Source: Thermoprotei archaeon (GTDB lineage: Archaea; Thermoproteota; Thermoprotei; Thermofilales; B15-G2). From it: a DNA stretch of 44,575 nucleotides. Positions 3,078 to 39,749 of the stretch are shown in pieces (position 1 is the stretch's first letter; every line of letters starts with the position of its first letter). The stretch lies in the NCBI GenBank assembly GCA_003650815.1, contig QMSB01000004.1, forward strand, positions 1 through 44,575. Reading direction: 5' to 3'. Both the position numbers and the translations under genes were made by a program. Below the pieces are notes generated by a model. It was not told where the DNA came from. It made no database searches and worked only from the letters and a program-made list of their open reading frames with translations.

Positions 3078-4136
3078 ATGATAGTATCTTGGTTTAATAC
3101 ACGTACTGCTTTTGAGAGAGGCGTCGAGAAGGTAATTAAGGAGCTGAATGATCTCAGAGTAGAGAAAGTCTTTCCAATAATAGTGGACGGCTCAGGGTCT
3201 CTCTACGATAGTATTCTCTACGATAAGGGAAGAAGTATCATTGGGGACGAGAAGCTGAAAGAGCTTTTCGATAAACTGCATAAGGCTGGAATAGAAGTTC
3301 ATCCGTGGATAGTTTCTCTTAATAGGCCTCATCCAGACTTTGTATCTAGACATAGAGACTGGTATGTAGTGAACAGGAACGGAGTGAGCTGTGTAGACAA
3401 GCCGCCTTACGTGGATCACTACAAGTGGTTATGTCCTTCGAGAGAAACTACGAGAAGATTTCTCGCAGAAACGGCTCTTGAAATAGTTTCTAAGTTCGAC
3501 GTTGAGGGTGTGCACTTAGACTACATTAGATTACCCGATGTAATTTTACCGATTCACTTCAGGAAGAGATATAAGCTACCTTTAGAGGCTAAGATATTGC
3601 CAGAATACGACTACTGTTACTGTAGCGTATGTAGGCAGAAGTATAAGGAGGAAACAGGAATAGATCCTATCGAGATAAAGTATTCTGACAAAATAAACTA
3701 TGAAAGATGGTTTAAGTGGAGAGCAAGGCAGGTATCTAGTGTAGTCGAGGAAGTCTACAAGAGTCTCAAGAAATATGATAGTGAACTAAAGCTTTCAGCA
3801 GCAGTATTTCCGACACCACTTATAGCATACAGATATGTTTTCCAGCAGTGGGCTTCCTGGAAAATAGACTTCCTGTGCCCCATGATATACCATAAATACT
3901 ACGAGAAACCAGTCGACTGGATACTAGAAGCTTCACTAGAATGTGTAGCTACAGGACGAGAAATATATGCAGGTATACACGCATACATGCTTGAAGAAAA
4001 AGAGGACGCGATGAAGGCTGTCAAACTAGCCCTTGAAAGCGGAGCAGACGGAGTGTGCTTCTTCCTCTACCCATTCCCTTATGAAAAACAAGTAGAGTAT
4101 TTCAAAGAGGCTGTAAGAAAATATACAGCTACTTAA
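3078..4136 (+). CDS. Glycoside hydrolase-like TIM-barrel protein (GHL10-like)
   Basis: IEVHPWIVSLN, EGVHLDYIRLP, CPMIYHKYY pattern of family 10-like glycosyl hydrolases. Confidence 0.75.
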   Translation: MIVSWFNTRTAFERGVEKVIKELNDLRVEKVFPIIVDGSGSLYDSILYDKGRSIIGDEKLKELFDKLHKAGIEVHPWIVSLNRPHPDFVSRHRDWYVVNRNGVSCVDKPPYVDHYKWLCPSRETTRRFLAETALEIVSKFDVEGVHLDYIRLPDVILPIHFRKRYKLPLEAKILPEYDYCYCSVCRQKYKEETGIDPIEIKYSDKINYERWFKWRARQVSSVVEEVYKSLKKYDSELKLSAAVFPTPLIAYRYVFQQWASWKIDFLCPMIYHKYYEKPVDWILEASLECVATGREIYAGIHAYMLEEKEDAMKAVKLALESGADGVCFFLYPFPYEKQVEYFKEAVRKYTAT

Positions 4137-4980
4137 CTCTAGCTGTAATAGCTCTAACGATATCTGTCTTAGTAACTATTCCTACTAAATCTTCTTTTTC
4201 ATTAACTACAGGTAAGCCGCTGATACCGTGATGTATCATAAGTCTAGCAGCTGAAACCAAGTCTTCGTTATCCCTCACTGTAATGGGATCAGGAGTCATT
4301 AAGTCTTCTGCAAGCGGTATTAGCGGAACCTTAACAACACCTCGTCTACCTCTTTCTCTGATATACTTAGCTTTTCTAAGATGATACTCTCTCATTATGA
4401 ACGGAGAAGAGAAAGTTACATCTCTTATAGTTATTATTCCTACGGGTTTTCTTTTTTCAACAACAACGATCCTAGAAATATTGTATCGAGCTAGCAGGTC
4501 TATTACTTTCATAGCCGAGTGATAGGGCTTGACTGTCACGACATTCTCTGTCATAAATTCTCTCACTAAAGCCAGTCCAGCACATTTATCCTTGTAGAAA
4601 TTACATAGATCAGTTTTAGTCAGGATCCCCTCTAAGGTCTCGTCTTCAGGGTCGAGAACTACTAGAGAGCTTATGGCTTTATTCACCATGGTTCTCGCAG
4701 CGTCAACTAGAGATTCGTCTGGATAGGTCGTGATAATGTTCTTTGTCATAACGTCTTTGACTAGTACCTCGTCTATGTCGTGTTCATTTTCTATACCTTC
4801 TAAGATTACTCGGGCAAAATCTTTTTGAGTGAATATTCCAATAGGCTTACTGTCTTCAATAACAATCACTCTATTGACGTTATATCTTAACATGAGTTTT
4901 CTAACATGAATTAAGGAATCGTTAGGGTGTACGACAACAGGGTCTAGTGTCATATAGTCTTTAACATAGTATCTCGTCAT
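4129..4980 (-). CDS. Protein with four CBS domains
   Basis: Four repeats of the type VKDVMTKNIITTYPDESLVDAARTMVNKAISSLVVLD...GILTKTDL. Confidence 0.92.
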   Translation of the reverse strand: MTRYYVKDYMTLDPVVVHPNDSLIHVRKLMLRYNVNRVIVIEDSKPIGIFTQKDFARVILEGIENEHDIDEVLVKDVMTKNIITTYPDESLVDAARTMVNKAISSLVVLDPEDETLEGILTKTDLCNFYKDKCAGLALVREFMTENVVTVKPYHSAMKVIDLLARYNISRIVVVEKRKPVGIITIRDVTFSSPFIMREYHLRKAKYIRERGRRGVVKVPLIPLAEDLMTPDPITVRDNEDLVSAARLMIHHGISGLPVVNEKEDLVGIVTKTDIVRAITARVK

Positions 4981-5088
4981 AGCTTCTCTATTTATCTAAC
5001 TTCTGCAGGCTAATAAAATACTCTTTCTATTTAAAAATACCAATTATCATAGTAATATTTTAGTGAAAAGTATAGAAAAATTTATATA

Positions 5089-5112
5089 AGGTATATAATT
5101 GATTATATACCT
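5089..5112. promoter_or_regulatory. Perfect inverted repeat AGGTATATAA-ttga-TTATATACCT, candidate operator
   Basis: 10+10 bp perfect dyad immediately after TATA-like TTTATATA (5081-5088) and about 20 bp upstream of the 5131 start. Confidence 0.75.
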
Positions 5113-5130
5113 AGAAGATAAATATTATAG

Positions 5131-5472
5131 GTGAAGCGTATAGGTGATACATGTGTACACGAACCCAAAACTCTTTGTGAGCTCGCTAAAGCTCTCTCCA
5201 TTTTGTCAAATCCCATTCGCTTGAGGATGATAGCCATGTTAGCGGAGAAACCTATGTATATATCAGAAATAGCACGAGAACTTAAGATACCTTATCCAAT
5301 AGCACATCTTCATCTATCAGCACTAGAAAGAGCAGGATTCATTAAAGGAGAGTATAAAATGTATACAGGGAAGCGAGCATATATCAAGAAGTACTATAGG
5401 GTAGTCTCTTTTAAAATAACTATTACTCCTGATAAAATAAGAGATTTAGCTAGAGGTGAGAGCTATGAATAG
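5131..5472 (+). CDS. ArsR-like winged-helix transcriptional regulator
   Basis: ALSILSNPIRLRMIAMLAEKPMYISEIARELKIPYPIAHLHLSALERAGFI wHTH pattern; GTG start. Confidence 0.88.
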   Translation: MKRIGDTCVHEPKTLCELAKALSILSNPIRLRMIAMLAEKPMYISEIARELKIPYPIAHLHLSALERAGFIKGEYKMYTGKRAYIKKYYRVVSFKITITPDKIRDLARGESYE

Positions 5473-5842
5473 TACTGAAGTGAAGGCGTTAATGGGCGTA
5501 GGGTTATTTGCAGCTGTTTTCGCTGTTCCCGTAGCTATGTTTTACTTCGCCGCTAGATATGGCTTAGACACGTGGATAGCGACAGCAGTTTCAGTACTAG
5601 CTATAATTGTAGGAGGAGCACTAGCTGTAGGTGCATTAGCTATCGCTTACGGCGCACTAGGTGAAGATGAAACCTATGCCAGGAGAATGTTGAGGAAGAT
5701 CAGAGAGGAATATGAGGAAAAGGAGCTAGCCTATAGTGCTCGCCAGAGGGCTATGCTTGAGGAGCTAGATGAGATAGCTGAATTGCTTAGAGAAATACGT
5801 GATTTACTCAAAGGTGAGTACGATGAGACGAGAAGGTACTGA
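5456..5842 (+). CDS. Membrane protein with C-terminal coiled coil (LLREIRDLLK tail)
   Basis: Two hydrophobic segments then charged helix; overlaps the upstream ORF. Confidence 0.8.
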   Translation: MRAMNSTEVKALMGVGLFAAVFAVPVAMFYFAARYGLDTWIATAVSVLAIIVGGALAVGALAIAYGALGEDETYARRMLRKIREEYEEKELAYSARQRAMLEELDEIAELLREIRDLLKGEYDETRRY

Positions 5843-5975
5843 TGAGAGGAAGCTTAAGTATGCCGATTTAAGCGATAGTGAGGTAGAGGAGCTTATTATG
5901 AAGCGTCTTAGGGAAATGAAAGAGCTTTTGAGAGAGATAAGGGATCTCTTAAAGGAGGCTGGGGGATATGAGTGA
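5823..5975 (+). CDS. 50-aa coiled-coil protein with LLREIRDLLK tail (absent from ORF track)
   Basis: ATG frame MRREGTDERKLKYADLSDSEVEELIMKRLREMKELLREIRDLLKEAGGYE*; overlaps both neighbours and shares the LLREIRDLLK motif with the 5456 product. Confidence 0.75.
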   Translation: MRREGTDERKLKYADLSDSEVEELIMKRLREMKELLREIRDLLKEAGGYE

Positions 5976-6780
5976 GTTATTTGATGAGTACTATACGGTT
6001 TTGAAGAGTAAGAGAGGAAGGTTGACTGCGGCGCGAAACGTAGTGTATGGGGGTGAAGTGCTTAAAGTAGCGGGTAGTCTCGTATTAAGAGAAGACACTG
6101 AAGTTTCTGTGCTGAAAGTTGCTGGGAGTTTAAAGCATATGGGCAACATTAAAGCTAAGGAGGTTAAGGTTTCGGGTAGACTAGAGGTTAAAGGATTTTT
6201 AAAGGCAGACGTAGTTAAAGTTGCTGGTTCGCTATTTGTCGGCGGAGACCTTATTGTTAATAATGTAGTTAAAGTAGCGGGGTCAGCTAAAGTGGGCGAG
6301 ACTGTTGTGGGGGGAGATGTGAAGGTAGCTGGAAGCTTAAAGACTAGTAGAATCAAGTGCTCTGTTTTTAAGTCTAGTGGAAGTATTCGTGCAGAGGATC
6401 TTTTAGCTAAGGAGGTTTACATAAGACTGCACTCGAGCGTATGTAGGATAAGTAATATTAGGGCTGATGTTATTGAAGTGAAATTACGTGAAGAAGAGGA
6501 GTGGTCTCTCGGAGAGTTTGTTGTGAGAGCTCTTAGCAGTTTTCTAGAGTGCTTTGATGTAGATTTAGAAAGAGAGGGGAGACTGTATTCTGAGAAGATA
6601 GCTGGGAGAGATGTCTACTTAGAGAACACTACATGTAGGCTTGTTGAAGGAGACTGTGTTGAGATAGGTCCAGAGTGTGATATTGATAAGGTTGTATATA
6701 AAGTGGATGTATCGGTTCATCCGTCTTCTAAAGTGAGAAAAATAAAGAAAATGACGAGTGGTCAGAGCAGCGGGGCTTAA
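5968..6780 (+). CDS. KVAGSL-repeat beta-solenoid protein, bactofilin-like/polymer-forming
   Basis: About seven KVAGSL-type repeats (LKVAGSL, LKVAGSL, VKVSGRL, VKVAGSL, VKVAGSA, VKVAGSL, FKSSGSI). Confidence 0.75.
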   Translation: MSELFDEYYTVLKSKRGRLTAARNVVYGGEVLKVAGSLVLREDTEVSVLKVAGSLKHMGNIKAKEVKVSGRLEVKGFLKADVVKVAGSLFVGGDLIVNNVVKVAGSAKVGETVVGGDVKVAGSLKTSRIKCSVFKSSGSIRAEDLLAKEVYIRLHSSVCRISNIRADVIEVKLREEEEWSLGEFVVRALSSFLECFDVDLEREGRLYSEKIAGRDVYLENTTCRLVEGDCVEIGPECDIDKVVYKVDVSVHPSSKVRKIKKMTSGQSSGA

Positions 6781-7385
6781 GGATATATTTTTTCTCCCAT
6801 TAACTTAGGGTCGTTATCGTATATTTCTTTTATATGGAAGAGGTAGACTGGTGTCTTGCTCCAATCTCTTGCTTTTCTTCCTCCATGAAAGAGATCGTGT
6901 ACCGCGTTCACGTACTTCCAGTAAATATCATTTTCGTGTATAGTTACTGTGCACCTAACTTCGTAAGTTATGTTAGGTGGTATGTAGAAGAGTATAGTTG
7001 CTTCAGGGTTTTCAAGAACATTTACCCAGGTATGCTTCTTGGCGAGTTCTATTGAGGTCAGTTTTGTAAAGTCTACTTTATCTTCGTCGTAAACTGTCTC
7101 AAGGAGTATCTTAAGAGCTGTGATTCGATCAACTCCTCTTGATAATTGTTCTAGAATAATATTTGTAGCTGTTTCTAAGTACTCTTCCTTTACTATGAAG
7201 CCTACTCCTTTAATGGAAGCATTTAGTCCTGCTGGTCCGTAAGTGGCTACAGCGGGAGTATGTCTAAGAAAGCCTATTAAAAAGTCTTCTCTAGTACTCT
7301 TTCCTTCGATTACTCTTTTTATGAGTTCTTTTCTCTCAACGAAAATATTTTTAATAAATTTGCTAGGTAGAGGCGCTTTTTCCAC
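6777..7385 (-). CDS. Hypothetical protein, 202 aa (possibly FMN-binding split-barrel-like)
   Basis: Full-length ORF; weak resemblance to PNPOx-like folds only. Confidence 0.6.
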   Translation of the reverse strand: MEKAPLPSKFIKNIFVERKELIKRVIEGKSTREDFLIGFLRHTPAVATYGPAGLNASIKGVGFIVKEEYLETATNIILEQLSRGVDRITALKILLETVYDEDKVDFTKLTSIELAKKHTWVNVLENPEATILFYIPPNITYEVRCTVTIHENDIYWKYVNAVHDLFHGGRKARDWSKTPVYLFHIKEIYDNDPKLMGEKIYP

Positions 7386-7399
7386 GTATATTTAATTGG

Positions 7400-8101
7400 C
7401 TAAATGTACTTAAGTGCTTTGACTGGTATACTATGAAGCCTAGCGATTTTGTCTGCTGTCTTTCGAACAACTATAAGCGCAAAAACTCCTATGGGTACTG
7501 ATTTAGTTATTCTACAGGCTTCTAGTAAAGCTGAAATTGTTGCCCCTGAGCGGACGATATCGTCTACTATGAGTATGTTTTCTCCAGGCTTTAGAGTGCT
7601 TTTAGGTAAATATAAATAAGAGTAGATTCCACTGGGAAAAACTCTCTTAACTTCAATAAACTCTCTTACACCAATTTCTTTCTTATGTTTAGCTATAGCT
7701 ATTCCTACTCCAAGTTTTTCAGCTATGAGCACGGCTAAAGGTATACCATCGGTCTCTATAGTCAATACTTTGTCGACATTATTGAATTCTCCTACAGCTA
7801 CGCTAGCTACTAGGCTTAATAGCTGAGTATCGCTAATCACTTTAGAGACGTCTATGATTCCGTCAGTAACTCTTATTTTCCTGTCAAGGAGCTTTGGGAG
7901 CAGCTCCTTGTAAAACTTATCGATTATTTCTTTTGCTCTCTCAGCTCCAGGCAGGATTCTGCCGTTGATATACTGGCTGAGAAGAGAGGGAGATAAATTG
8001 AATATAGGGGATAGTTCATCGTAAGAAAACTCCTTTTTAAGTGCCTTTAAAACCTCTATCGACACTAGTTTGAGCCTGAGGTGTTCTAACTTACTCGGCA
8101 T
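7400..8101 (-). CDS. HTH-phosphoribosyltransferase fusion regulator (GfcR-like)
   Basis: N-terminal HTH (LSPIFNLSPSLLSQYINGRILPG) plus PRPP-binding ILIVDDIVRSGATISALLEA. Confidence 0.82.
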   Translation of the reverse strand: MPSKLEHLRLKLVSIEVLKALKKEFSYDELSPIFNLSPSLLSQYINGRILPGAERAKEIIDKFYKELLPKLLDRKIRVTDGIIDVSKVISDTQLLSLVASVAVGEFNNVDKVLTIETDGIPLAVLIAEKLGVGIAIAKHKKEIGVREFIEVKRVFPSGIYSYLYLPKSTLKPGENILIVDDIVRSGATISALLEACRITKSVPIGVFALIVVRKTADKIARLHSIPVKALKYI

Positions 8102-20803: not shown

Positions 20804-21139
20804 TCAGATATTATGGGAAATTTCTTTAAGTGATTTAAGTAGCTTTTCTAAGACCTGCTCTTTTCCCGCATTTTTAATCTCTACTACTTTCACCCTGCTT
20901 CTGGTTCCGTGAACTATGCTGACCTGATGCTCGGGAAAGCCTATTTTGAGTAAAAATTTCTTAAGAGCGGCGTTGGCTCTTCCGTGAATCGTGGGCTCTG
21001 GTGTCAGATAAACTAGTTCTCCTCCCTCTACTACAAGTTTCTCAACTGGTTTCTCACACCTTACTACTATTCTAACTCTAGTACCTCGTGGAGTTTCCTC
21101 TAAGCTTTTTTCTAAAACTTTCTCACTCTCGGGTCTCAG
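20804..21139 (-). CDS. DUF167/YggU-family protein, non-canonical start (absent from ORF track)
   Basis: Minus frame KVLEKSLEETPRGTRVRIVVRCEKPVEKLVVEGGELVYLTPEPTIHGRANAALKKFLLKIGFPEHQVSIVHGTRSRVKVVEIKNAGKEQVLEKLLKSLKEISHNI*. No in-frame ATG/GTG/TTG before the conserved region; CTG at 21139 is the only near-cognate after the upstream stop. Confidence 0.75.
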   Translation of the reverse strand: MRPESEKVLEKSLEETPRGTRVRIVVRCEKPVEKLVVEGGELVYLTPEPTIHGRANAALKKFLLKIGFPEHQVSIVHGTRSRVKVVEIKNAGKEQVLEKLLKSLKEISHNI

Positions 21140-23057
21140 CTTCGATCACCTCTTTCTTCTCAACTACCTCTACAGGAACAACTGCTCTAGCCATTTCCCT
21201 GATTATGTCCATTTTACATATAGTTCCAACTAGGCGCCCCTTTTCGTCTACAACAGGGACTCCGTCAACATTGTAGTCAAACATTAGCTGAATAGCTTTC
21301 GCAACACTGTCTTTTAAGGAAATTCTTGCTTTTACGGGAATACAGGCATCTTGTGCAGTAAGTGGAAGTATTCTGATGTATCTTGCAAGCTTCTTACCTG
21401 CCTTAACTAGTTTTCTGACCCACATTATCAGCACTGCTTTTCTTCCCTTGAGGTATTCTTCTATAGGTACGAAAACCAGCCTGCTTTCACATACTACGCC
21501 GAGTATTCTGTCTCCATCAGCTACTGTTACTGTGTCTAAGTTGAGTGATCTCATTTTCCTAAGCACGTGTAGCAGTGAGTGATGAGGATGAACTACGCTG
21601 AAGTCTCTAGGCATAACTACATTTTCTACTAACGGTATGTCTTGTGAATGCTTCAAGTAGGCTTTAACCACATCGTCTTTAGTGACTAATCCAATGATAT
21701 CGCCTTTCTTGTTCACAACAAACACGGCGTCTATATCATTAGCGACCATCTGATATGCTATTTCCTCTAGGCTAGCACTTTCCTCTACTTTAGGGACGTC
21801 TTTAACTACAATATCTTCAACTAGTGCTGGCTTCTCCAGAAATGTTACGCCAAAACGAGTCTTCATTAGGGGCTCTGCGTGAGGACTTGGTCTCTTCCAG
21901 TATCTTCCATGTTCAGCTATATAGTAGAGGATATTTCTTCGAGAAACTACTCCAACTATTTCACCGTTATAGTCTACTACTATGCAGTGACTAGATTTAA
22001 ACTTCAGTAAGCTCTTACGGCAGTGCTCAATAGTATCTTTTATAAATACTATTGGGAGGTCTTTTCTAACTATAGTTGACGCGACTAAACCTACTTTAGC
22101 AGGAGCTACTTTGCGAGGAGTAACTACTAGCTGTAAGAGTGCTCCAGTAGGCTTGCGCACAACTCCCTGCGAGTATGCCTCTATGGGTATAGGTACGGGC
22201 ATAGGGACTACGGGCTCTCTGCCAGGTTTTCTTCCCTCAATATAGGCTCTAACTACATCTTCTATTGTGACTATACCCACCAGTTGCTCTTTTTCATTTA
22301 CTACAGGTAGTACGCTTAAACGTGTTCTAGTCATGAAGTCAGCTACTATATCTATAGGAGTATCAAGACTTACTAAGGGCACTCCTCTTCTTGTTAGCCT
22401 AAATACTTTCATTACGTAAGATACTCTTGGACCTCGAGCCATTATCTCCTGTTTCGCTTCTCTCCTGAAGAACCATCGACTAGTCTCTATGAAATCTTCT
22501 GCTGTGACTATTCCTTGGATTCTCCCTTCATCGCTTAAGACTACCGCTGCTTTAGCTCCATAGCCCACGATGCGCCACCACAGTTTATCTACTCTATCGC
22601 CGCCTTTGCAGACGATCACTTTATCTTCTTCATCAAGGCTTGTGTAAACTTCAGCAACAGTACTTGCTTTATGTGTAACTCCTTCTTCTCTGAGCTTATC
22701 GAGTATATCGAAGAGGGATATTGTTCCAACAACTTTTCTCTCGAAAGGAGAAGAGACTACAAGAGCTTCCTCTAGTCCAAACTCTACCATTATGTTGTAA
22801 GCTTCCTCTAGGCTCATTTCAGGGGTCAGAAGGGGGTGTTCTCTAACAACGTCGCGTACTCTAAGTCTGGATTTCTTACTAGTTGCTATCAACACGTCGT
22901 GTAGCGTGATGAAACCTACACAACTATCGCTAAAAGGATCTTTAAAGACGGGGGCTACCTTAAGCATAAGTTTTCTAAATATTCTCCTACAGTCAACTAA
23001 GCGCTCGTTGAGCAGAATTCGGATGCCTAGAGGAACTACTATCTCCTTTATTTTCAT
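21123..23057 (-). CDS. Large protein with about eight tandem CBS domains
   Basis: Repeated CBS signatures such as VSLDTPIDIVADFMTRTRLSVLPVVNEKEQLVGIVTIEDVVRAY. Confidence 0.92.
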   Translation of the reverse strand: MKIKEIVVPLGIRILLNERLVDCRRIFRKLMLKVAPVFKDPFSDSCVGFITLHDVLIATSKKSRLRVRDVVREHPLLTPEMSLEEAYNIMVEFGLEEALVVSSPFERKVVGTISLFDILDKLREEGVTHKASTVAEVYTSLDEEDKVIVCKGGDRVDKLWWRIVGYGAKAAVVLSDEGRIQGIVTAEDFIETSRWFFRREAKQEIMARGPRVSYVMKVFRLTRRGVPLVSLDTPIDIVADFMTRTRLSVLPVVNEKEQLVGIVTIEDVVRAYIEGRKPGREPVVPMPVPIPIEAYSQGVVRKPTGALLQLVVTPRKVAPAKVGLVASTIVRKDLPIVFIKDTIEHCRKSLLKFKSSHCIVVDYNGEIVGVVSRRNILYYIAEHGRYWKRPSPHAEPLMKTRFGVTFLEKPALVEDIVVKDVPKVEESASLEEIAYQMVANDIDAVFVVNKKGDIIGLVTKDDVVKAYLKHSQDIPLVENVVMPRDFSVVHPHHSLLHVLRKMRSLNLDTVTVADGDRILGVVCESRLVFVPIEEYLKGRKAVLIMWVRKLVKAGKKLARYIRILPLTAQDACIPVKARISLKDSVAKAIQLMFDYNVDGVPVVDEKGRLVGTICKMDIIREMARAVVPVEVVEKKEVIEAETRE

Positions 23058-34395: not shown

Positions 34396-35481
34396 TTGAT
34401 GCAGTATCTTTCTTCCGTGAAGCATGTTCTGCCTTCCAGTATTCTTAGGGAGGCTTTGAGCAAAGCTATTGATATTAATGAGGCTGAGGTCCCTGTAGCC
34501 GATGAAAATTCACGATACTTAGGAGTAGTAGATCTCAGGCCCCTGTTTCTTCCCTCGACAGATATACTTGATACACGTGTCTCAAATATTATGGTTAAGT
34601 ATCCTACTCTCTCCGAGGAGTTCTTTTCACCTGAAGAAGCTATGAGTATTATGATTAATAGTGGTGTTAGAGGAGTTCCAGTAGTTAGGGGTAAGAGTGT
34701 TTATACAGGAATGTTTTATCATAGAAATGCACTAGAGTATCTTAGAGATAGAGGCTTTGGGAGCAAAATTAAGGTTAACCAAGTAATGAGAACAGTGGTT
34801 CCCTGCGTTTTTTCTGAAGATACTCTCGCTAAAGCTGCTGCTGTTATGAGAAGGTATAAGGTTTCAAGAGTTATTGTTACTGAAGAGAGGAGAGGTATTA
34901 TTAAACCTATAGGCGTGCTTACTAGAACTGATCTTCTTAGAATTCTCTCGAAGTATAGCAAGGACAGGGCGAGTTACGGTGAAGTTGTCGGAGAAAAGTA
35001 TAGATTTCTTTCTCAGAGAGTTCGAGAATTCGTATCATTTAAACTAATTACCATAGACTACAATGAGCCTATATCTAACGCTATAGCCCTAATGCTAGAC
35101 AACGATGTTAGGAGTCTCCCTATAGTAAAGAACTCTGAGCTAATAGGGCTTATCGCTTCTACGGATATAATTAAAACTTACGTCAGGTACCTCACTTTAA
35201 AGGAGAAAGCGAAGAGAGTTTACTATAAAGTTCACTGTAACGTAGAGGAGCTTAAATCGACTATAGAAAGCATTATTTTATCTAAAAGAATTCCTCCAGG
35301 CGTTAGTGTCGACGTAGAGTTCTATAGGCGTAGAGGTAATCTATATGAAGTCTACGTGAGGTTTAGAACATTCAACCGATTTGTTGTCTACGGCGATACT
35401 GCGAGAGGAGTAGAGAGAGCATTAAAAGTTCTCAGAAAAGCCATAGACTACTGTAGGGCACGCATTTTTGAAATAAGATAA
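34396..35481 (+). CDS. CBS-domain protein with C-terminal HPF/YfiA-like domain
   Basis: CBS repeats followed by RVYYKVHCNVEELKSTIESIILSKRIPPGVSVDVEFYRRRGNLYEVYVRFRTFNRFVVYGDTARGVERALKVLRKAIDYCRARI, a b-a-b-b-b-a pattern. Confidence 0.8.
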   Translation: MMQYLSSVKHVLPSSILREALSKAIDINEAEVPVADENSRYLGVVDLRPLFLPSTDILDTRVSNIMVKYPTLSEEFFSPEEAMSIMINSGVRGVPVVRGKSVYTGMFYHRNALEYLRDRGFGSKIKVNQVMRTVVPCVFSEDTLAKAAAVMRRYKVSRVIVTEERRGIIKPIGVLTRTDLLRILSKYSKDRASYGEVVGEKYRFLSQRVREFVSFKLITIDYNEPISNAIALMLDNDVRSLPIVKNSELIGLIASTDIIKTYVRYLTLKEKAKRVYYKVHCNVEELKSTIESIILSKRIPPGVSVDVEFYRRRGNLYEVYVRFRTFNRFVVYGDTARGVERALKVLRKAIDYCRARIFEIR

Positions 35482-36864: not shown

Positions 36865-37785
36865 CTATTTAAAGAAAGGTTCTCTTAGAGAATTAGCTTT
36901 AATGAACAGTTTTGTTAAGACTTCCTCTTTCTCAGGTAAAGTCATGTTAGATCTAATTACATGAAGCAGACTTATAGTATTGTCATTTCTCATTAAACAT
37001 GGCTTTAATTTACCATCATGAGTCAATCTGATTTTCCTGCACTTTAAGCAAAACTCGGAATTACCGTACGACTCTACTAGCTCTACCTTAATTCCTGTAG
37101 GTAGTACATATACAGGTCTGTTTTGAAGATCTCTCCTATATTCCTCTACGCAGTGCTTTCTCAAGTAATTCTTAATGTGCGTCAGCGACACATGATATTT
37201 ACAGTATTCTTCAAAGCCTACTCCAAGCGGAATTAGCTCAATGAAACAGACATCAGCTCCTATTTTCGAAGCAAAGTTAATTATTTTTAAATATTCATCG
37301 TGGTTTAATCCATTTAATATGACTGTATTTAATTTAATTTTTAATCCATAACTAGCTATATTCTTAATACCCTCGATAACTCTTTTTAATCCATTTACTT
37401 TAGTTATAGTCCTATAGACTTCCTCGTTTAGAGAGTGCAGACTTACGTTAATTCTATCGAGTCCTGCCTCTACAAGCCCTTTTGCTCTATTTTCTAAAAA
37501 ATAGCCATTGGTTACCAGAGAAATCTCAACATCTTCAAATCGGCTTAAGTACTGTACAATGAGCTCCAAGTCGTCCCGTAATAAAGGCTCTCCTCCCGTT
37601 ACCTTAAAGAACCTTATTCCCAGCCTATGGGCTACTTTACATACTAGAGCTATTTCTTCCGCCGATAGCTCGTCACTAGACATTTCTTCGCCTTCTCTGT
37701 GGCAGAAGAAACACATGTAGTTACATCTGCCTGTAACAGATATTCTCAAGTGAGTTAAAGGCCTTCCATATTTATCTACTAGCAC
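36865..37785 (-). CDS. moaA: GTP 3',8-cyclase
   Basis: LRISVTGRCNYMCFFCHREGE, VTGGEPLLR, C-terminal FCLKCRKIRLTHDGKLKPCL. Confidence 0.95.
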   Translation of the reverse strand: MLVDKYGRPLTHLRISVTGRCNYMCFFCHREGEEMSSDELSAEEIALVCKVAHRLGIRFFKVTGGEPLLRDDLELIVQYLSRFEDVEISLVTNGYFLENRAKGLVEAGLDRINVSLHSLNEEVYRTITKVNGLKRVIEGIKNIASYGLKIKLNTVILNGLNHDEYLKIINFASKIGADVCFIELIPLGVGFEEYCKYHVSLTHIKNYLRKHCVEEYRRDLQNRPVYVLPTGIKVELVESYGNSEFCLKCRKIRLTHDGKLKPCLMRNDNTISLLHVIRSNMTLPEKEEVLTKLFIKANSLREPFFK

Positions 37786-39749
37786 GCGTAAATCACCTTA
37801 CCTGTATCCTTGTGGAGAGAGTATCCCGGGAGGAGAGTAATTATTTTCTTAAGACTACTTGGATCGAGTACATGCATAAAATCTTTAGCTATGTTTTTAT
37901 TTAATATGTCTTTGCTTAATATAAAATCATATATTTCTGTTGAAATTTTTGTAAATCCTAATTTATATTTATCTGCAATGTACTTTACTGCTACCCCTAC
38001 GTCGGCTATTCCTCTAGAGATCAGATATCCTACTGCTTCATGTGTTTTTACTTCATACTCGAACCCCTTTATCCTTTCCTTGAATTCTCGAGAACTTACT
38101 TTTTCTTTTTTGGCTTCTCTTTTAATAATTTCTTCTATTAAAGCTCTTGTTCCAGAACCCTTATTTCGATTAATAAACCTTAGTTCATTTTCAATTATTT
38201 CTGTAAAAGACTTTATCTTCAGGTCTCTGCGGTACACAAAACCTTGCTCCCTTAAGTATCCTCTCACTACAACTAGGTCTCTATACTTATATTTCTCTAT
38301 AAAAGGAATGTTGTATTCTCCTGTAGATGGATCGTATAAGTGTGATCCGGCTATATCAGCTATCTTTTTGCCTACTAAGTTTAAACCTGTAAGACTACCT
38401 GTGATAATTATTTTTAGTGAATATCTTTCTCTAAGTCTCTCTAGAAGGCTTATCGCTAGAGGACAGTGGCTTCCCGCGAAAAGTACACGTTGTCTGAAAT
38501 TCTCTGAAAATATTCTGACGGAAACCGTTGCTCCTTCAGCTAAGTACTCTGTGTTCTCCGGTATTGTTATGAATCCGTCGCTCATGTAAAGTGTGTATAG
38601 AGCCCCGCTGTGTGTACTCAGTGGATACGCATAGATTTTACCTCTTCTCTCAGCTATTATCGCTGGTACAAGCTTAACTAGTCCTACTGCTCCTCTTACA
38701 GGAGACAGGAGTTCTGCTTCTACTGTTTTCTCAATAACGCTAGGTGATGTTCCCTGAAGCATTTTTATTAACGGAACTAGCAGTAATTTAGCTATATTAA
38801 GGCAAGATACAGGAAAGCCGGGAAGTCCGAAAAGCACTTTTTCTCCAGCTAGAGCTATCACAGTAGGTCTTCCGGGAGAAACCTTTAGTCCGTGGACAAT
38901 TACTCCGGGTCCGTACTCTGAAAAAACTCTGTAGGTTAAGTCGCCGAGACCTGCTGAAGTGCCTCCTATCGTCACTACAATATCGCTGTCCTCGAGAGCT
39001 CTATCTACAGCATCCTTTATTTCACTATAGCTGTCTTTAACTATATTCAGTCGCTTTACAGAAGCTCCAGCTTCTTCTAGCAGCGCAGCTATCATAAACG
39101 AGTTCGAATCATATATTTTTCCATACTCGAGCTCCACGCCGGGCTCAGCTAACTCGCTACCTATCGGTATTACTGTGACTTGAGGCTTAGAGTAAACTTT
39201 AATCTTCGTTATACCCGCCGACAGGAGTACTCCGATAAGCTGTGGGGTCACTATTTCGCCTCGCCAGGCGACTATTTCTCCTTCAGCAATATCTGATCCT
39301 ACTAGGTCTACGTTTTCTCCCTTAGCTACTCTTCGATAGACTTCTACTTCATTAGAAGGAGTCTTACAAGTATACTCTACTGGAATTACAGCATCTGCGG
39401 GATAAGGTATAGGGGCCCCTGTGTCTATTTCAGCGCACTCTCCTTTTCTGAGCTCAAAGGAGGGAGCTTCGCCTATCTTCACTACGCCTGCGAGCTTCAG
39501 TTTTACGGGCTTATCTTCGTATGCGAGTGATGTATCTGAAGAATAGACAGCATAGCCGTCCATCAGCGCTCTGCTGAAGGGTGGAACCGAATATGCTGCT
39601 TTGATATTTTCAGCGAGCACTCTTCTAAGAGCTTTTTCGACTGGAACTTCTTCTACACGTAGACTTCTCGCTTTCACTATTTTAGATAATATTTCAAATA
39701 CTTCGCCTAAGTCAGCAAGCTTTCTATAAACTTTCCTATATTTTCCCAT
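37779..39749 (-). CDS. MoeA fused to C-terminal periplasmic-binding-protein-like domain
   Basis: MoeA signatures (PPFSRALMDGYAV, TGAPIPYPADAVIPVE, GGTSAGLGD) plus GSHCPLAISLLERL...RNKGSGTRALIEE. Confidence 0.92.
   Translation of the reverse strand: MGKYRKVYRKLADLGEVFEILSKIVKARSLRVEEVPVEKALRRVLAENIKAAYSVPPFSRALMDGYAVYSSDTSLAYEDKPVKLKLAGVVKIGEAPSFELRKGECAEIDTGAPIPYPADAVIPVEYTCKTPSNEVEVYRRVAKGENVDLVGSDIAEGEIVAWRGEIVTPQLIGVLLSAGITKIKVYSKPQVTVIPIGSELAEPGVELEYGKIYDSNSFMIAALLEEAGASVKRLNIVKDSYSEIKDAVDRALEDSDIVVTIGGTSAGLGDLTYRVFSEYGPGVIVHGLKVSPGRPTVIALAGEKVLFGLPGFPVSCLNIAKLLLVPLIKMLQGTSPSVIEKTVEAELLSPVRGAVGLVKLVPAIIAERRGKIYAYPLSTHSGALYTLYMSDGFITIPENTEYLAEGATVSVRIFSENFRQRVLFAGSHCPLAISLLERLRERYSLKIIITGSLTGLNLVGKKIADIAGSHLYDPSTGEYNIPFIEKYKYRDLVVVRGYLREQGFVYRRDLKIKSFTEIIENELRFINRNKGSGTRALIEEIIKREAKKEKVSSREFKERIKGFEYEVKTHEAVGYLISRGIADVGVAVKYIADKYKLGFTKISTEIYDFILSKDILNKNIAKDFMHVLDPSSLKKIITLLPGYSLHKDTGKVIYAC

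Follow-up and report, generated by a model that had tools for sequence, protein, structure and literature searches.

The window (the whole 44,575-nt stretch of Thermoprotei archaeon contig QMSB01000004.1 that was analyzed) carries a four-gene operon, g1-g2-g3-g4, which represents a real and deeply conserved archaeal module, apparently undescribed. It encodes an ArsR-type regulator, a membrane protein, a small helical protein and a predicted beta-solenoid protein related to bactofilins. The best-supported reading, whose chances we put at about even, is that the operon specifies a sub-membrane scaffold of bactofilin type along with its regulator, and that this scaffold serves exporters or the upkeep of the membrane. 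No description of the operon was found in the literature searched (open-access subset).

Organization of the operon

Inspection of the ORFs of the window revealed four plus-strand genes, each of which overlaps the next (Table 1). The ATG of g2 (position 5465) precedes the stop of g1 (5472), as does an in-frame GTG (5456) that would yield a product of 128 aa; the ATG codons of g3 (5823) and g4 (5968) precede the stops of g2 (5842) and g3 (5975), respectively. An earlier interpretation of the DNA letters (hereafter the sequence-only reading) had placed four overlapping ORFs at this site, and the start and stop coordinates bear out each pairwise overlap. The product sizes that it gave for g3 (50 aa) and g4 (270 aa) also stand; that of g2, given as 128 aa, is probably 125 aa, counted from the ATG at 5465.

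The operon is flanked by a divergent gene for a four-CBS protein (4129-4980), one of three CBS proteins (two to four domains each) encoded in the 44-kb window (the others at 21123-23057 and 34396-35481). The stop of g4 is overlapped by 4 bases from the opposite strand by a gene (6777-7385) with a weak PNPOx match. The window also encodes an HTH-phosphoribosyltransferase fusion (7400-8101), matching PRK08558-type adenine phosphoribosyltransferase above the cut-off, and a MoeA protein fused to a PBP-like domain (37779-39749).

Table 1. Genes and sequence features of the operon (window coordinates)
Feature	Position	Strand	Description
Putative archaeal BRE/TATA element GAAAAATTTATATAA	5075..5089	+	from sequence; TATA-like part 5081-5089
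Candidate operator, 24-bp near-palindrome AGGTATATAATTGATTATATACCT	5089..5112		between TATA element and g1 start
g1	5131..5472	+	ArsR-type winged-helix regulator, 113 aa
g2	5465..5842	+	125-aa membrane protein with two predicted TM helices followed by 56-residue helix
Conserved g2 C-terminal helix YSARQRAMLEELDEIAELLREIRDLLK	5732..5815	+	invariant residues; pLDDT about 88-95
g3	5823..5975	+	helical protein, 50 aa
g3 helix in heptad register of g2 tail	5880..5954	+	hhalign; charge/hydrophobicity profile
g4	5968..6780	+	bactofilin-family beta-solenoid protein, 270 aa
g4 N-terminal motif MSELFDEYYTVLKS	5968..6009	+	predicted helix 2-14, low confidence; candidate docking element
g4 beta-solenoid core, seven KVAGSL-type coils	6043..6486	+	predicted strands, residues 31-170

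Distribution and conservation

A g3 profile gave matches in 33 of 398 Thermoproteota genomes (21 of 163 genera), and a deeper g3 profile added no genomes from this set. The g2 profile matched the same 33 genomes plus one more, and relatives of g4 were detected in 24 of the 61 genomes of the first search. Across the 398 genomes the distribution is patchy, the operon being missing from some close relatives of its carriers.

Thirty-five operon loci (including L065 and the window) were examined, with 12 kb analyzed for each where contigs allowed. Twelve families are represented, as is a Thermoproteota MAG identified by name; the g2 scan gave at least seven named loci, and these include Thermofilales, Thermofilum sp. 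NZ13, a Thermoproteales MAG, Bathyarchaeota ex4484_205 and the Thermoproteota MAG. The g2 and g3 genes are adjacent in all 35 loci and the order g1-g2-g3 is kept in 34 (the exception, L072, is cut by a contig end), while a solenoid gene follows g3 in nearly all of them, except in L078. In the latter (G020:C11) g1-g3 are intact and the g4 frame contains several stops, which points to gene decay or misassembly in this copy.

In most of the loci the downstream gene starts at position -1, -4, -8 or -20 relative to the preceding stop; such offsets are the usual mark of translational coupling. Since overlaps and gene order are repeated in 12 Thermoproteota families, the arrangement goes beyond chance. 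The sequence-only reading had staked itself on a conserved neighbourhood in related genomes, and this expectation is confirmed by the 35 loci.

The solenoid protein and its N-terminal motif

AlphaFold2 modeling (eight sequences) predicted a beta-solenoid for g4, with a mean pLDDT of 82 (about 86-97 over residues 31-170 and about 95 in the core). Seven KVAGSL-type strands follow one another at intervals of 16-18 aa, each with a glycine (positions 36, 53, 70, 87, 105, 122 and 138) that is invariant in 15 relatives. Both the solenoid fold and the presence of about seven such strands had been anticipated in the sequence-only reading, as had a likeness to bactofilins. The last of these is supported by Bactofilin (PF04519) matches in 15/15 relatives (E ≤ 0.01, best 3.5e-13) and by the g4 family profile, whose top two matches in the PDB are the bactofilins 2n3d and 6ria (E 0.004 and 0.006, respectively). 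Placement of g4 in the bactofilin family is therefore supported by sequence comparison at the family level. The g4 of the window taken alone reached E 0.006 and 17.2 bits, compared to a Pfam cut-off of 27.9, which counts against the scaffold reading. A single-sequence PDB search with g4 gave no matches; a Foldseek comparison of its model with the PDB gave none at E ≤ 0.001, a result that is uninformative and was counted against the same reading.

In families f9 and f13 (complete genomes), g4 is a 171-aa variant with a different repeat and no Pfam match, hence none to Bactofilin. These variants start with MAEKFDRYYEYF, which resembles the MSELFDEYY start of the window protein.

The shared element near the N-terminus of g4 is the motif [F/L/M]xxY, for which the strict pattern [KRELDIV][FLM][DERKVA]xY was used. 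This pattern is present in 33 of the 35 operon loci; of the other two, L092 (MAEKYDEYEK) differs only by a Y in place of F, and L078 is the decayed copy. It was found in 15 of 366 neighbouring genes, and none of the 12 entries for stand-alone solenoids (9 distinct) has it. It is retained even in operon-linked g4 proteins with another solenoid type, and the motif may serve for docking to partners encoded in the same operon. The genome of the window also encodes a stand-alone 410-aa solenoid protein (L026:3366-4598) with Bactofilin matches (1.7e-10); it belongs to a separate family of ~400 aa, which several relatives share and which has neither the N-terminal motif nor an accompanying operon.

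Bactofilins typically, though not universally, reach the membrane via an N-terminal peptide, which in the BacA type reads MFSKQAKS (PMC12448750). The canonical BacA-type targeting peptide was not found in g4, the N-termini of which read M(S/A)ExFDxYxxxL. The membrane recruitment usually performed by this peptide could fall to g2.

The membrane protein, the small helical protein and their shared helix

The AlphaFold2 model of g2 consists of three helices (residues 3-32, 36-65 and 69-124), the first two of which are predicted to be long enough to cross the membrane. Since both ends of the protein are charged, we infer that they are cytoplasmic. Alignment of the g2 family (15 relatives) revealed invariant residues in the C-terminal helix (Y90, R93, Q94, L98, E99, D102, R112 and D113), and the conserved end of this long helix is the best predicted part of the model. 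Foldseek comparison of the g2 model with the PDB gave no match at E ≤ 0.001, which is uninformative. No Pfam family matched g2 above the cut-off (a weak Holin-X match, E 0.006, fell below it), and none matched g3. The g3 family comprises helical proteins of 39-50 aa with the signature LKYxxLSDEEVxxLIxKRLREMKxLLxEIRDLLK.

The LLREIRDLLK helix that the sequence-only reading had assigned to both g2 and g3 proved to be real: residues 24-46 of g3 align with the g2 tail over 23 columns (hhalign, family versus family; E 2.5e-8). Across the 35 loci, the hydrophobic positions of the two helices coincide with 3-4 spacing and the closing EIRDLLK-type stretch is alike. The half before this stretch carries opposite charges, with g2 basic and g3 acidic, and then the reverse (mean charges of aligned g2/g3 positions: +0.8/-1.0, +1.0/-0.3, -0.9/+1.0 and -1.0/+0.9). 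Coinciding hydrophobic positions combined with opposite charges would suit a parallel, in-register g2-g3 hetero-oligomer, and this common heptad register is compatible with an interaction between the two proteins. The likeness of g2 and g3 tails was 8.2 (of 17) for the same locus versus 7.7 across loci, a value reached by 0.06% of permutations; this excess is explicable by shared ancestry, and the loci are not independent.

The regulator and its upstream region

The g1 protein matches HTH_5 (Pfam) with E 6e-13 and 48.8 bits, compared to a cut-off of 22, and is thus an ArsR-type winged-helix (wHTH) protein, in agreement with the sequence-only reading. The best PDB match of the g1 family profile, and its closest solved relative, is the ArsR-family regulator 2p4w (E 5e-15), which we take to be Phr. 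The likeness to the Phr-type regulators of Thermococcales is limited: the NCBIfam Phr model matches g1 weakly (36 of 320 bits, far below the cut-off), and these regulators have ~200 aa, whereas g1 corresponds to the wHTH region only (~100 aa). The g1 of the window contains two cysteines, neither of them conserved among 13 relatives, and the conserved metal-binding cysteines of ArsR/SmtB metal sensors were not found in this family, which makes metal sensing, and with it a metal-type ArsR signal for g1, appear unlikely.

TATA-like tracts, like the putative one in the window, are present upstream of g1 in many relatives. The near-palindrome adjoining this element lies where a repressor would block initiation; since its arm length was equalled by 18 of 500 dinucleotide shuffles, this candidate operator is suggestive at most, and its statistical weakness was counted against the scaffold reading. 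An operator motif common to the loci was also sought and rejected: the palindromes present in some loci differ, and most do not rise above shuffled sequences. In L066, where an ABC ATPase gene diverges from g1, an almost perfectly symmetrical 44-bp promoter, CTATATATAAACTTCCCCTTATACAAGGGAAAGTTTATATATAG, lies between the two genes; both of its strands bear a TATA-like element.

Exporter and Band_7/NfeD genes adjoining the operon

Genes of ABC exporters (ABC_tran, ABC2_membrane) adjoin the operon in about 17 of the 35 loci, representing 7 families, in three arrangements. Directly downstream, an ABC ATPase accompanied by permeases of ABC-2 or similar type is encoded in L069, L071, L080, L088, L089, L093 and L097; in most f9/f13 loci the exporter is upstream, with its permease end toward g1; and in L066 it is divergent from the operon. 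No adjoining exporter was found in the window, in most loci of family f4 or in the single loci of families f11, f55 and f58. The neighbouring ATPases form groups that are ~30-43% identical to one another, which argues against one inherited block and makes more than one origin of the association probable. The genomes contain 19-65 ABC_tran matches each (12 genomes counted). By our own estimate, exporter adjacency would be expected by chance in roughly 5-10% of loci (with ~four genes per locus), compared to about half observed, related genomes not being independent.

In four Thermofilum-type loci (L067, L068, L073 and L074), Band_7 followed by NfeD is the convergent neighbour of the operon. At the locus of the window itself, both an ABC exporter and Band_7 are missing from the immediate neighbourhood, which counts against the scaffold reading. 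The membrane linkage proposed in the sequence-only reading is supported by the predicted helices of g2 together with these recurrent ABC-2 exporter and Band_7/NfeD neighbours. Taken as a whole, that reading is borne out in part.

Possible function of the operon

According to the scaffold reading, g2 would be anchored by two membrane helices and extend its long C-terminal helix into the cytoplasm. There g3, a free, copy-like partner of this helix, would join it in a parallel heteromeric coiled coil; g2 may thereby act as anchor and g3 as bridge. The g4 protein would dock on the g2-g3 bundle by its N-terminal FDxY helix and polymerize, or otherwise form a platform, beneath the membrane. This scaffold would position or stabilize ABC-2 exporters and other membrane proteins. 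The g1 protein would act as an ArsR-type repressor of the operon and, in many lineages, of the adjoining ABC-2 exporter, tuning the level of the scaffold to a membrane or exported-compound signal; envelope stress may be the input. The observed basis of this proposal comprises the genes, their linkage, families and predicted folds, and the adjacency of exporters and Band_7.

In another reading, possible though on the unlikely side, the operon as a whole would act as a membrane sensor that has g1 as its output: a g2-g3 membrane complex, perhaps including g4, would capture or release g1, and the solenoid would be a docking platform rather than a cytoskeletal polymer. This follows what has been proposed for the bacterial HAAS-PadR pair (PMC11237479). 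The reading is favoured by the first position of the regulator in every complete operon and by a layout like that of HAAS-PadR-Toastrack modules. Against it, g1 is a bare wHTH domain of about 100 aa with no element that would obviously contact the helices, and the g4 family resembles bactofilins, not Toastrack.

The parallel with these modules extends further. The PspA-free bacterial Toastrack modules include HAAS-PadR-Toastrack and GntR-HTH/ABC/Toastrack operons (Ravi et al. 2024, PMC11237479), and share with the operon an HTH regulator, a small membrane/helical protein and a cytoplasmic beta-helix protein, as well as an ABC ATPase and permease often nearby and Band-7 associations. Pfam scans of g1-g3 detected no PadR, GntR, HAAS, PspC or LiaI-LiaF. 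The Toastrack domains DUF4097/DUF2807 gave a match below the cut-off with the g4 of the window (E 0.087), and among its 15 relatives DUF4097 matched one weakly (0.0013) and DUF2807 two (best 0.0023). Membership in the Toastrack group was therefore rejected, in respect of both the Toastrack domain and its partners (PspC/LiaI-LiaF/HAAS/PadR). The text on these modules mentions neither bactofilins nor ArsR regulators (PMC11237479). The layout of the operon is thus comparable to that of bacterial HTH-membrane-Toastrack modules, built from other families.

A bolder, and unlikely, version is a membrane-sensing system of archaea complete in itself: a bactofilin polymer, hung from g2 by the heteromeric coiled coil, would directly govern g1 and so export capacity. 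If true, cytoskeleton, membrane anchor and transcription switch would be united in one operon.

We regard as quite unlikely that g2-g4 are a dedicated accessory of ABC-2 exporters, assembling with the exporter for clustering or gating, with g1 as its local regulator. The number of families with adjoining exporters, their downstream, upstream or divergent placement and the divergence of the ATPase groups speak for it. The loci without such neighbours, including the window, speak against it, unless the operon copies there act on an exporter encoded elsewhere; moreover, ABC genes are common, and single cases are therefore weak.

Band_7/SPFH-NfeD membrane-organizing pairs likewise adjoin the operon in the Thermofilum-type loci, but as convergent neighbours outside it, and are absent from the other loci. 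The bactofilins (PF04519), including Caulobacter BacA, Thermus bactofilin and the halofilins, resemble g4 in the matches of its family and in its beta-solenoid model; g4 differs in its acidic FDxY helix, and the operon adds a membrane protein, a small helical protein and a regulator. The halofilins, described as archaeal bactofilin homologues shaping Haloferax cells (PMC12186497), provide a precedent for a cell-shape cytoskeleton in which g1 merely tunes dose. Despite the bactofilin membership of g4, this is very improbable: the patchy spread (33 of 398 genomes) ill suits a core shape determinant, and the exporter neighbours would be left unexplained. A virus-derived or toxin-antitoxin/defence cassette, suggested by a small holin-like membrane protein (the sub-threshold Holin-X match of g2) beside a regulator, is scarcely credible and was disfavoured, as g3 is encoded on no viral contig, PHROGs and PADLOC gave merely generic HTH or chance-level matches, and the genes are tightly conserved over deep lineages.

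Two families without a Pfam model, g2 and g3, are found to accompany a regulator and an archaeal bactofilin constantly, throughout deep lineages of a single phylum. For the poorly known bactofilins of Thermoproteota, this supplies a membrane anchor and probably also an adaptor, and it places them in the functional context of export and membrane upkeep. It also suggests that archaea have built, from different parts, a module resembling the bacterial HTH-membrane-beta-helix stress operons.
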